This document shows, one piece after another, positions 1,412 to 7,230 of a stretch of DNA of 64,000 nt (position 1 is the stretch's first letter; every line of letters starts with the position of its first letter). The translations under genes were made by a program, and so were the position numbers. A model generated the notes under the pieces. That model made no database searches, had not been told where the DNA came from, and was given only the letters and a program-made list of their open reading frames with translations. Source of the DNA: a virus; the IMG/VR virus record IMGVR_UViG_3300027708_000033, positions 1 through 64,000 of that record; one strand, given 5' to 3'.

Positions 1412-1552
1412 TTAGTCTTTCTTGGTTACAAGACGGCGTTTGATTGCGTCAAAAACTTTTGGACGCTTCTTAGTTGCTTTACCACTTGGTCGGCCGTCTC
1501 CAGTACGCTTTACTACGACTGGTGCTGGCTTTCCGCCTTTTCCTTTAGCCAT
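1412..1552 (-). CDS. Small basic protein, 46 residues
   Basis: The ATG at 1552 follows a strong AAGGAG Shine-Dalgarno sequence. The product is extremely basic (about a third Lys and Arg), with a Gly-rich N terminus, a Pro-Ala-Pro-Val-Val-Val strand and a Lys-Arg-rich C terminus. This composition fits a nucleic-acid-binding peptide, but no family is recognised. It is the first protein gene after tRNA-Trp on the minus strand. Confidence 0.6.
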   Translation of the reverse strand: MAKGKGGKPAPVVVKRTGDGRPSGKATKKRPKVFDAIKRRLVTKKD

Positions 1553-1587: not shown

Positions 1588-1624
1588 TTACACTACTTGG
1601 AGTGTGTCGTTACGACCTAATCTG

Positions 1625-1695
1625 CTGGTTCTGTAGGAGTCGAACCTACGCTAACGGTGTTGGAGACCGCTGTGCTACCGTAACACTTAGAACCA
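1625..1695 (-). tRNA. tRNA-Trp (CCA anticodon)
   Basis: The minus strand folds as a complete cloverleaf. The acceptor arms TGGTTCT and AGAACCA pair perfectly. The D stem is GTGT/GCAC. The anticodon stem closes a loop CTCCAAC, giving anticodon CCA for Trp. The T arm GTAGG/CCTAC carries TTCGACT. The discriminator is G, as usual for tRNA-Trp, and the 3' CCA is not encoded. It lies just downstream of the tmRNA on the same strand, so both may come from one precursor. Confidence 0.93.
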
Positions 1696-1721
1696 AAACA
1701 CCTAGCCTCGCGACTAGGGTG
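1695..1721 (-). terminator. Hairpin between tmRNA and tRNA-Trp
   Basis: On the minus strand CACCCTAG and CTAGGTG pair with one bulge around an eight-base loop, then four U residues follow at 1698-1695, running into the tRNA. A second hairpin, TGAGGT/ACCTCA at 1720-1736, lies just before it. These may terminate or help process the tmRNA transcript. The U run overlaps the tRNA 5' end, so partial read-through is likely. Confidence 0.45.
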
Positions 1722-1760
1722 AGGTACATGACCTCAATGCCGCTGGACATGCGTGCATCG

Positions 1761-2104
1761 TGGACCAGCCGGGAATCGAACCCGGGTCCTAACACCGTCT
1801 TTACACTCTTCTACATGCTTAGGCAGATTGTTTGCGACCAGACGTATGACCTGCCAGACCGTCGGACGTTACCACGATTTATAGACTCCGTGGAAAAAGT
1901 CTTGTTTTGTTCTATTTATTTAAAACCTGACTGCCCAGCTAGAACTACTGCTTTGTCAGGGGCCTTAGCGGTGTAGTTAGACTACGCTGCTAGTGCGAAT
2001 GCTGAACGTGAGTTTGCATTTATTGCTTTACCCGATTCAAGAGTACGGGCGTCTCTGCATGCTTCTTTGTAAAGTTAGACATCAGTCGAAAGCCTGTCTA
2101 GCCC
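1761..2104 (-). ncRNA. ssrA: Transfer-messenger RNA (tmRNA) with proteolysis tag
   Basis: tmRNA rescues stalled ribosomes by adding a degradation tag to the unfinished protein. The 3' end (minus strand) has the conserved string CTAAGCATGTAG, a T arm (CCGGG, TTCGATT, CCCGG) and the acceptor arm CTGGTCC, which pairs with the 5' end GGGCTAG at 2104-2098, followed by discriminator A. CCA is not encoded. The 5' domain has TTTCGAC and GCATGCAGAG, as in bacterial tmRNA. The tag reading frame is 2017..1982: ANSRSAFALAA then TAG, with the resume codon GCA preceded by ATAAAT. The ALAA end is the classic ClpXP signal. Length 344 nt is normal for a one-piece tmRNA. Confidence 0.93.
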
Positions 2105-2124: not shown

Positions 2125-2130
2125 ATTATA
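2125..2130 (-). promoter_or_regulatory. Likely tmRNA promoter -10 box
   Basis: A perfect TATAAT on the minus strand lies 20 bases upstream of the mature tmRNA 5' end, with TTTACT as a plausible -35 about 18 bases further up. The start site would be ~13 bases before the mature 5' end, so a short leader would be trimmed by RNase P. Confidence 0.55.
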
Positions 2131-2181
2131 CCCTGCTCCGGTTTAGTTAGTAAACTCGTAACAAAACAGTTATACTTGAAC

Positions 2182-4094: not shown

Positions 4095-4551
4095 CAGGAT
4101 TTTTTGCCTTTCCATCTTTATCTGCGTAAACCAAGCCAATAGAGTCTCCGACTTTTAACTCGATAAAAGAAACTCCAGTCTGAGACGGGTACCAGTGTGA
4201 TTTTACGTTTAGGTCGTTGCTTCCGTGTTTCTCAAACAAAGTCCATTTCCAGTCAATGTCTTTACAGGATTTTAGCTTAGGAAGTTTGTTTACTTGACAG
4301 ATTGCTTTACCTAGTTCTTTACCAAAATCAAGGTAGTCAATTTTTAGTGTCGTGTTACTGAGCAAGTCAATCGCTTTTACTTTTCCAGAAACAGCAAAAC
4401 ATCTTTCATCTGGAGTCTCGTTTGACAGAGTTCCAAAATCAACATAGACATTTACACAGTTTGCTTTAGGTGTAGTAGTCTCACCTTTAATCCATAGCAG
4501 GCCGAGCAACCCGCATGTGATTGCAGTAGCAACTAATAGTTTACTCTTCAC
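4078..4551 (-). CDS. Membrane-anchored or exported protein, 157 residues
   Basis: The start is GTG 4551 behind a strong GGAGG. A Lys-Ser-Lys start followed by a hydrophobic segment (residues ~5-21, LLVATAITCGLLGLLWI) makes a signal anchor. The remainder is a soluble beta-rich domain with several cysteines (for example CVNVYVDFG, CQVNKLPKLKSC) and an acidic tail, suggesting an extracytoplasmic fold with disulfides. No family recognised. It overlaps the adenosyltransferase gene by 11 bases and is likely co-translated. Superinfection exclusion or cell-surface binding are possible but unproved. Confidence 0.6.
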   Translation of the reverse strand: MKSKLLVATAITCGLLGLLWIKGETTTPKANCVNVYVDFGTLSNETPDERCFAVSGKVKAIDLLSNTTLKIDYLDFGKELGKAICQVNKLPKLKSCKDIDWKWTLFEKHGSNDLNVKSHWYPSQTGVSFIELKVGDSIGLVYADKDGKAKNPDDNDN

Positions 4552-5116
4552 GGCTACCTCCAGGCACCCATAAGACATCGCCAACCTCACGGTTAGCGTA
4601 CCTAGACAACACAAATAAAAGGTCAGACAGACGATTTAAATACTTTGCAGCCGTGATACTCACACCCTCACCAAAAGAATGGATAGCATTCCAAGTTTCA
4701 CGTTCTGCTCTTCTAGTGACCGTTCTTGCTGCATGCAACTGCGCTGCTAGCGGTGTCCCACTAGGTAGGACAAAACTTCTTAAAACTGGCAAATCTTTGT
4801 TGTAGTGGTCAATTAGTTTCTCTAAACGAGAGACCTGGTCCTCAGTGACTCTAAGTGGAGTAACTTTAGGCTCATCGATTACTGGTGTGCAAAGGTCTGC
4901 TCCAACATCAAACAAATCATTTTGAATTTGAAGCAAAACTTTTTTCACATCGGCGTCTATGCCCATAGACAAGGCAACTCCAATACTGGAGTTAGCCTCA
5001 TCTACGGTTGAGAATGCTTCAAGTCTGGCATCGTTTTTAGAAGTTCTGCTCCCGTCTCCGAGAGAAGTTGTTCCGTTATCGCCAGTCTTTGTATATACGC
5101 TACTGATTACTACCAA
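4541..5116 (-). CDS. PduO-type cob(I)alamin adenosyltransferase
   Basis: This enzyme transfers the adenosyl group from ATP to cob(I)alamin, making adenosylcobalamin. Family marks are clear. The N-terminal ATP site is YTKTGDNGTTSLGDG followed by R..KND.R.EA and TVDEANS. There is a middle segment LPSGTPLAAQLHAARTV with TRRAERE, and the C-terminal helix YLNRLSDLLFVLSRYAN. Length 191 fits. It starts at TTG 5116 immediately after the stop of the reductase gene, so the two are co-expressed. Its product is the cofactor of the class II reductase next door, a tight functional match. Confidence 0.92.
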   Translation of the reverse strand: MVVISSVYTKTGDNGTTSLGDGSRTSKNDARLEAFSTVDEANSSIGVALSMGIDADVKKVLLQIQNDLFDVGADLCTPVIDEPKVTPLRVTEDQVSRLEKLIDHYNKDLPVLRSFVLPSGTPLAAQLHAARTVTRRAERETWNAIHSFGEGVSITAAKYLNRLSDLLFVLSRYANREVGDVLWVPGGSREE

Positions 5117-7159
5117 TTATTTCTGGTTCTCCACAATCAACTTGATTTCACAGGCGTCGGTTGTGCAGTAAGCCTCACCGATACCATCAATGCCGAGTCC
5201 ACCATAGATTCCAGCAAAGTCGATAGGGAACAACTTACCAGCCGCTTCCTCGTACTCTTCCTGAGTAATCTGTGTGTAAGGCATCTGAGGGTAAGTAAAG
5301 TTACCAGATGGCAAGAAGCTCACAGTCTTCAAGCTTCCGTCGTACATGTGGAGAACTTTTTCAACGTCCTTCGACTCAGTCTCAGGGTCAAACGAGATAG
5401 TCACAGATACAGAGTTGTCAGACCAGTAACGCTGGGCAGTAGCTGCAAGGTTCATCTTCTCGTAGATGCTCACATCTTTCTCGGCACGTTTAGCGCTTGC
5501 CTTGATTGGGAAGTACACGACTGAAGTGTGCTCTGGGTTTTCAGATGCCGGCTCAACTACGTAGTTAGCCATCTTAAATAAAGCCAACTGAGGGTCATCG
5601 TTACCGAATCTAATAGCACGGTTGAAGTATTCACCGCCTGGTGACCAGTGCGCGCCAGGAGACTCACCAGCGAGAATAGATACTGTACCAGAAGGCTTGA
5701 CTGTCGTGGTCTTAATTGACTCACGAACACCTAGCCACTCTGAGTAGATGTTGTCGTAGCGCTTTACAACTGCGTAACCCGCATCCATCCAGTTGCGAAG
5801 TTCTGGCAGTCCACGGTTGTCTGCAAAGTTAGCGATACCTGACATTGAGGTTCCGATACGACGGTTACGCTGCATGATTGCGTTAGTCTCTTCCCAGTGT
5901 GTAGGAAGAAGAGTTACTGTCTTGGCGTAAAGATAAGCAAACTTTAGAGTGCGCTTGTAGTCTTCAACATCAGTGTGGCGGTTCAAGTAAGTCTCAACAA
6001 GAGTACACATTTCGTATGACTCAAGGGACTGCTCAGCACACGGGTTGTAACCAGCGATACGCCAGTCCTTGTTGTTAATCGGGTCAGCTAGTCTACCGTA
6101 CTGCTTAGACATGTCTTCCCAAATAACACCAGGCTCACCGTTGCGAATGATGCCATCAACAATTTTTGAGAAGTCGGTGCCGACGTTTACCATGACCGAG
6201 TTGTTGCTCATCCAACCCCAACCAGGGTTCTCTGAATCATAAGAGTTACGGTCTGGAAAAACTTCAGCGTTTTTTAGGTTCAGGAAGTTGTCATCATCAA
6301 TGCGACCAACTAAAAGTTCAGCTGAGCGACGAACGTTACCTGACACTACACAACGACCAATGAGATTTCCAATGTCGGCAATATCGACTGTTGTAAGTTT
6401 TTCGCCACCGCGACCAGTGAAAATCTTCTTGATTACCTCGTGCAATTTGATTAGTGGGTCTGGGCCTGAAGCAGTTCCACCAAAGGTTGCAATAGGTGCA
6501 CCGTAAGGACGAATCTCGCTGTAATCGAACTCTAGGCTTTTTTGCCCCTTGATTAGGAAGGAGTTGATTAGTGCCACAGTAGATTCCTGCCAACCCTCAC
6601 GAGTATCAGGGATAACATAAGTAAATACTTCTTCAAGCGGTGTGTAGATTTCAAAATCCTTGTCCGCACCCTTGTCGTCAAAGCCAACACCGACACCAAG
6701 CATAGAAGCTTCCATAAGGAATGCAAACGGCTTACCTGGGTTCTGCTTGGTCATCTCCAGTGTGGACACGAATGCGCAGTTCTGTAGCGATGCAGAGTTT
6801 TTCTGACGGTTCACAAGGTCAGTACCCATCTGGCTCAAGCCACGACCAGGAGGAGACCACTTCAGGTGGAACAACCGGTCATAAAACTCTTTAGCAGACG
6901 AGGCAGCTTTAGCGTCAGACCAAGGTAGTCGTTGCTGTTTTGCGTAATCTTTCTGTAGCGAGTAAGTTCCGTTAGTTACACGCTCACAAACCTCAGCCCA
7001 AGTTTCCTTAGTGCCATCTTCTTTTTTTCGTGAGTAAGTTCTTAGAAAAGTAATTTCGCCTACAGAGTTTCCTGCAGCATCACGGAAACCAAACGGTGCG
7101 GTCTTCTTTTTGTATTCTGATACGAAATCTTCGCTTAGTTTAAAGGATAAAAATAGCAT
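5117..7159 (-). CDS. nrdJ: Adenosylcobalamin-dependent ribonucleotide reductase, monomeric class II
   Basis: Reduces ribonucleoside triphosphates to dNTPs using an adenosylcobalamin radical, without oxygen. The layout matches the Lactobacillus-type monomeric enzyme: an early LRTYSR segment, SLQNCAFVST with an active-site Cys, GVGVGFDDKG, then NPCAEQSLESYEMC with the conserved Asn-Pro-Cys-x-Glu, and VKPSGTVSILAG. The C-terminal redox pair is in AYCTTDACEIK. The start chosen is ATG 7159 (680 residues) after AGAAGG; a TTG at 7201 adds 14 unconserved residues. It is paired with its adenosyltransferase and NrdH. Confidence 0.95.
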   Translation of the reverse strand: MLFLSFKLSEDFVSEYKKKTAPFGFRDAAGNSVGEITFLRTYSRKKEDGTKETWAEVCERVTNGTYSLQKDYAKQQRLPWSDAKAASSAKEFYDRLFHLKWSPPGRGLSQMGTDLVNRQKNSASLQNCAFVSTLEMTKQNPGKPFAFLMEASMLGVGVGFDDKGADKDFEIYTPLEEVFTYVIPDTREGWQESTVALINSFLIKGQKSLEFDYSEIRPYGAPIATFGGTASGPDPLIKLHEVIKKIFTGRGGEKLTTVDIADIGNLIGRCVVSGNVRRSAELLVGRIDDDNFLNLKNAEVFPDRNSYDSENPGWGWMSNNSVMVNVGTDFSKIVDGIIRNGEPGVIWEDMSKQYGRLADPINNKDWRIAGYNPCAEQSLESYEMCTLVETYLNRHTDVEDYKRTLKFAYLYAKTVTLLPTHWEETNAIMQRNRRIGTSMSGIANFADNRGLPELRNWMDAGYAVVKRYDNIYSEWLGVRESIKTTTVKPSGTVSILAGESPGAHWSPGGEYFNRAIRFGNDDPQLALFKMANYVVEPASENPEHTSVVYFPIKASAKRAEKDVSIYEKMNLAATAQRYWSDNSVSVTISFDPETESKDVEKVLHMYDGSLKTVSFLPSGNFTYPQMPYTQITQEEYEEAAGKLFPIDFAGIYGGLGIDGIGEAYCTTDACEIKLIVENQK

Positions 7160-7230
7160 TCCGCTGCCTTCTGGATAGTGGGTGAAGGACCATCTTATCA
7201 AGTAGGTATATTGCTATTTAGCCAAATACC

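Follow-up and report, generated by a model that had tools for sequence, protein, structure and literature searches.

A full-length tmRNA gene with its own tag in a lineage of uncultured freshwater actinophages

Phages that carry a tmRNA gene are already known. The tmRNAs of Streptomyces phages Wakanda, Francob and Lululemon lie among tRNA genes and encode the tags ANSRNAFALAA, ANSMNASAFALAA and ANSKFAFALAA, respectively. Mycobacterium phage Phabba (Ceeclamvirinae) has a full-length tmRNA among its tRNAs, which we take to be linked to the long-known Bxz1-type phage tmRNAs. The RNA of mycobacteriophage DS6A is phage-encoded and tmRNA-derived as well and is comprised of the tRNA-like domain only, with no messenger part (PMC4131195). 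That paper tabulates ten phages with a tmRNA as of 2014, many later phage genome reports name one, and a 2025 database update processed viral genomes too (PMC11915505). A Bradyrhizobium phage paper presents the same general functional idea as the one proposed below, with no test of it in the available text (PMC12656738), and no experiment testing a full-length phage tmRNA came up in a limited search of the open-access literature.

The tmRNA described here lies in the window, which covers bases 1-64,000 of an IMG/VR virus record of 127,237 bases, and is a well-conserved fresh example of a phage tmRNA, not another kind of system. It shares with the bacterial tmRNA (RF00023) the acceptor with G3-U70, the T arm, P2, PK1, PK2, by direct reading PK3 and PK4, the Ala resume codon, an ALAA-ending tag and the stop, and differs from it in being phage-encoded and in not encoding CCA. 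Its tag, ANSRSAFALAA, is one residue off that of Wakanda, whereas the tag of Phabba, ANDNDATVTEADFAEIEAFANDSVLV, lacks the ALAA end. The Wakanda, Francob and Lululemon tmRNAs are shorter (267-280 bases), belong to another phage lineage and form a separate group in the tree. Unlike the DS6A RNA, the window tmRNA has the messenger part as well.

The initial annotation called phage tmRNAs rare, which is too strong. A published list of ssrA phages exists, and of 50,697 phage records, 62 gave a match in a distant blastn search whose query was a composite tmRNA, many of these matches being limited to some 30 bases in the T arm and acceptor and not all being confirmed tmRNAs. The matches include Streptomyces, Mycobacterium, Stenotrophomonas, Pseudomonas and Synechococcus phages. 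Pseudomonas phage SM1, cyanophages S-CAM1 and S-SSM7 and Stenotrophomonas phage Moby (L303-L306) carry ARAGORN candidates marked with an asterisk, which presumably denotes a two-piece, permuted tmRNA; their records annotate no tmRNA at those sites.

The gene and its folded structure

The gene and its parts are located in the window as follows.

1758..2104, minus strand: tmRNA (ssrA) gene, one-piece (ARAGORN, 1760-2104; Rfam RF00023, 1758-2104)
2030..2056, minus strand: pseudoknot PK1, upstream of the tag (direct pairs; helices 5 and 6, 97.1% and 87.7% of cells paired)
1982..2017, minus strand: tag frame ANSRSAFALAA with TAG stop and resume codon GCA (ARAGORN coding part 88-123, codons listed)
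1909..1960, minus strand: pseudoknot PK2 (direct pairs; helices 10-12, 100% of cells paired, with both-side changes)
1872..1902, minus strand: pseudoknot PK3 (5+5 pairs by direct reading)
1822..1863, minus strand: pseudoknot PK4 (second stem GGCAGGT/ATCTGCC; first stem GACG/CGTC read by eye)

ARAGORN reports the tmRNA as one-piece, not permuted, and the Rfam covariance match has a score of 99.9 bits against a gathering score of 47 (E 7.6e-38) and extends over model positions 1-374 of 374. The full-length tmRNA gene is thus confirmed by two independent detectors, and no other tmRNA was found in the record of 127,237 bases. The initial annotation had proposed, from the letters alone, a complete tmRNA of the phage with a tag of its own, and both detectors and the virus-record origin bear this out. 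The extent of 1761-2104 and the tag given in the initial annotation were right; the strand, missing there, is minus, and the two conserved strings quoted there are both found on it. The covariance search that had been suggested as a check is the one that matched the whole model. The acceptor runs into ACGA (discriminator A, then CGA), so that CCA is not encoded and must be added, as had been claimed; only 3 of 25 relatives' tmRNAs encode CCA.

Direct pairing in the window tmRNA gives a 7-bp acceptor with G3-U70 and a 5-bp T arm, as well as P2 and a hairpin around the stop codon; paired acceptor ends and a T arm had been noted before the search. Of the pseudoknots, on which the earlier reading had been made to depend, the pairs of PK1, PK2 and PK3 form and the second stem of PK4 is present, the latter from a search run without a null. 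The alanine identity pair, G-U at pair 3, is kept in all 26 phage tmRNAs.

Across the 26 distinct phage tmRNAs, standard pairs occupy 87.5% of the pair cells, compared with 74.2% in shuffles; since the window sequence was the source of the drawn structure, this figure is favoured over versions with slid partners. Changes on both sides of a pair are found in 251 cells, against 91.9 in shuffles and 33-49 with slid partners, and 45 of the 73 pairs of the named structure show such a change. The covariation score is 0.337, against 0.127 and 0.04-0.06, respectively. As judged from this alignment, the paired stems, PK1 and PK2 included, covary far beyond the controls, which shows the structure to be under selection. 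The second stem of PK4, in a search run without a null, differs yet stays paired in relatives that include L009, L018, L021, L094, L098 and L272. The last of these tmRNAs (L272 1503-1880) has a long near-perfect hairpin directly after the tag stop, and its tag is ANSRSAFALVA. PK3 has 38.6-62.5% of its cells paired (helices 13-15) and is without alignment-wide support because its segment is exchanged between phages or lost.

The exchange concerns the stretch between PK2 and a conserved CTAAGC, which swaps like a cassette among the tmRNAs of L012, L015, L092, L098, L100 and L103. L012 and L015 are 99% identical before it, 100% after it and 46% within it; the corresponding figures for L098 and L100 are 98%, 100% and 49%. 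L098 and L103, on the other hand, are 86% and 79% identical outside the cassette and 98% within it. The edges are sharp and fall at the same two places in the compared tmRNAs. Judging by these comparisons, the PK3-PK4 part behaves as an exchangeable cassette between phage tmRNAs. PMC4236655 describes laboratory chimeras in the hp5-PK4 segment of tmRNA that retain tagging activity, and natural PK3-PK4 swaps would therefore be tolerable. No earlier report of cassette exchange between phage tmRNAs turned up, judged by title, in a limited search of the open-access literature. Five tmRNAs (L014, L022, L023, L027 and L036) are short, 296-302 bases, with 41-43 bases between PK2 and the 3' half. Read by eye, they seem to be without PK3 and to have a compact last pseudoknot, TACC-GT-GGCT-GGTA-A-AGCC or its GGTT/AACC counterpart.

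Relatives, tags and descent

The relatives were reached by two routes. The neighbouring reductase gene led to 80 virus loci, 16 of them with an ARAGORN tmRNA; many of the others stop short of the tmRNA position or come from less closely related phages. Exact matching of 25 bases from the tag region added 17 loci, 13 with an ARAGORN tmRNA, and one of these loci, L095, is nearly identical to the window. DNA polymerase was found in 4 of the 17 tag-matched records and is 75-77% identical to that of the window record; none of the 17 yielded the window-type reductase. A search of viral contigs with a strict actinobacterial tmRNA pattern gave nothing, the pattern being too strict.

An Rfam scan of 36 records placed a tmRNA above the cut-off in 18, namely 15 of 28 virus-contig records and three of eight named phages (GMA2, Sixama and Lululemon). 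The window score is the lowest of those 15. There was no tmRNA match in 11 of the 28 virus-contig records, two more of which end inside a tmRNA, nor in Actinomycetia phage DSL-LC01, the nearest named relative by DNA polymerase (75.8% identity; Microbacterium phage Pumpernickel, 58%). The tmRNA is therefore not essential to such phages. The window tmRNA is a member of a family that related uncultured freshwater actinophages share.

The tags of the 26 phage tmRNAs are ANSRSAFALAA in 11 (one read by eye), AESRSAFALAA in seven, ANTSAYALAA in four, AERTSAFALAA in three and ANSRSAFALVA in one, and the C-terminal end is [F/Y]AL[A/V]A in all. The 17 tag-matched loci were not used as evidence of constraint because they were chosen by the tag, whose DNA is constant by design. 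In the 16 tmRNAs reached through the reductase gene, and so independently of the tag, the last five tag codons show change at three third positions and one second position (Phe/Tyr), and no first position varies; the ALAA residues are constant while the third positions of their codons change. This pattern of substitutions shows the encoded tag to be under constraint.

The tags of the hosts were taken from 66 tag-bearing loci, collected by an order search around a Planktophila genome (the order name from taxonomy is Candidatus Nanopelagicales) and from further individually fetched genomes. Twenty-three of these tags end in ALAA and none has A before F or Y, a feature of 26 of 26 phage tags. The tag of the sampled Planktophila-type copies, ADNSRSDFALAA, has 12 residues against 11 in the window; it is carried by L109, L115, L121 and L122, the last titled Candidatus Planktophila and the others unplaced actinobacteria.

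A quick maximum-likelihood tree of 153 rows included the 26 phage tmRNAs, 117 distinct actinomycete host tmRNAs (64 of the Planktophila order set and 53 others) and three Streptomyces-phage tmRNAs. All 26 phage tmRNAs fall into one clade (SH-aLRT 98), apart from the host and Streptomyces-phage tmRNAs; the window copy has a long branch, 0.39, with a best identity of 69%, and the tool warned of long branches. Compared by blast with 130 host tmRNAs, the phage tmRNAs gave only short matches, mostly in the T arm and acceptor, so that no recent donor is found among the sampled hosts. The tree is consistent with the phage lineage having acquired its tmRNA once, long ago.

Phage setting and candidate host

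The elements flanking the gene are the following.

2125..2154, minus strand: promoter-like site TTTACT-18-TATAAT, some 20 bases upstream of the mature 5' end (consensus scan, 10/12 matches)
1701..1718, minus strand: hairpin between the tmRNA and tRNA-Trp, terminator-like or a processing hairpin
1624..1695, minus strand: tRNA-Trp (CCA anticodon), about 62 bases downstream of the tmRNA (ARAGORN, Rfam)
1415..1552, minus strand: conserved basic microprotein of 46 aa, of no known family, encoded close to the tmRNA in most relatives

The promoter scan of the region gave two sites against a shuffled mean of 0.6, a consensus match only and not evidence of function. The tRNA-Trp and the tmRNA probably share one transcript. 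The rest of the record contains one further tRNA, tRNA-Thr. Genes for a WhiB regulator, a thioredoxin-domain protein, a cobalamin adenosyltransferase and a B12-dependent ribonucleotide reductase are near the tmRNA, and a divergent helix-turn-helix-like gene (weak matches) is on its other side. The adenosyltransferase adjoins the reductase (4541-7201, minus strand), forming a phage cofactor-plus-enzyme pair.

Searches of PHROGs, Pfam and NCBIfam gave the microprotein no significant match, and its PDB matches were all insignificant. In relatives it has 36-47 aa, is encoded on the tmRNA strand and usually lies 11-90 bases upstream of the tmRNA; that of the window is downstream of tRNA-Trp. Leaving out the two records whose contigs end inside a tmRNA, it is found in 14 of 15 virus-contig records with a tmRNA and in 5 of 11 without one (one of them marginal, E 2.3e-4), and the latter occurrences weaken the idea that it depends on the tmRNA. 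None of the eight named phages, three of them with a tmRNA, has it. The co-occurrence has a Fisher p of 0.02, a value that ignores relatedness and comes from a profile built mostly from tmRNA neighbours. It is conceivable, though improbable, that these phages carry a rescue unit of their own, in which the tmRNA with its traded PK3-PK4 cassette would be accompanied by the co-transcribed Lys/Arg-rich microprotein; bound to the ribosome or to the tmRNA, this protein would serve as the phage's own partner, either alongside host SmpB or as a substitute for it.

The candidate host is a freshwater actinomycete, as suggested by the WhiB gene, by the likeness of the tag to those of Planktophila-type genomes and by DSL-LC01, a metagenome-assembled phage of Dishui Lake with actinomycetes as predicted hosts. 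The assignment is no finer because the phage tRNA-Trp found nothing in 394 actinomycete genomes, in a search without a positive control, and the phage reductase found no relative in genome contigs. That the phage brings its own SmpB or ClpP was considered and rejected: neither protein was matched in any of 12 phage records, and the phage would therefore borrow both from the host. The annotation of DSL-LC01 includes an HslV-like subunit.

Proposed function

The reading favoured here, at a probability of roughly 0.85, is that of an active tmRNA of the phage lineage, which would rescue ribosomes and tag nascent chains for host ClpP-type proteases during infection. The complete sequence, the conserved and covarying structure, the constraint on the tag and the single descent in the phage lineage are its basis; transcription, charging, tagging, degradation and the benefit to the phage would proceed as follows. 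Transcription of the tmRNA would start at a promoter of its own and probably take in tRNA-Trp as well; host RNase P and 3' nucleases would trim the RNA, and the host CCA-adding enzyme would complete its end. Alanine would be loaded onto it by way of the G3-U70 pair, and SmpB and EF-Tu of the host would bind it. Entering ribosomes stalled on broken or stop-less messages, it would switch them to its own frame, add ANSRSAFALAA and release the ribosome at TAG, and the ALAA end would pass the tagged product to host ClpP-type proteases. For the phage, the gain would be rescue RNA in amounts suited to its heavy translation, just when the RNA of the host may be disappearing; it may plausibly act in late expression or host shut-off.

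It is possible, with a likelihood of perhaps one in four, that the tmRNA is kept mainly for ribosomes that stall during infection when host toxin or abortive-infection RNases cut their messages, and not as general support. The patchy distribution among related phages is as expected of an accessory defence trait, and the tmRNA often sits among tRNA genes, but the patchiness also fits general translation support and the scanned adjacent genes include no defence-linked neighbour. Far less probable is a decoy that titrates host SmpB or blocks the host tmRNA, as suggested for the DS6A RNA. PMC4131195 reports that a minimal tmRNA-like RNA can inhibit tmRNA; the gene here is full length, its tag frame and stop are kept in relatives and the tag changes synonymously, which counts against a decoy because a decoy needs no tag. 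Slightly less probable still is a relic of integration, in which host DNA would have been carried along, tmRNA genes being favourite integration sites. Mycobacteriophages integrate at host tmRNA genes, as PMC3029335 reports, and a serine-recombinase-like frame (L008 2357-3049, minus strand), named by eye and by analogy with the annotated recombinase of DSL-LC01, lies near the far end of the record. Against this, the whole gene is present and not merely a 3' piece, its structure is maintained, and the phage clade is apart from the sampled host tmRNAs. A bacterial tmRNA misassembled into a phage contig, conceivable for a metagenomic virus contig, is practically ruled out by similar tmRNAs beside like phage genes on many independent phage contigs.

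The tag and the structure are under selection, and the active tmRNA would therefore be kept because it tags proteins, not as a passenger. With this finding, the known range of phage tmRNAs comes to include a lineage of uncultured freshwater actinophages. The set of 26 includes natural pseudoknot chimeras, a parallel to the laboratory chimeras of PMC4236655, and offers ready material on why a phage needs its own ribosome rescue.
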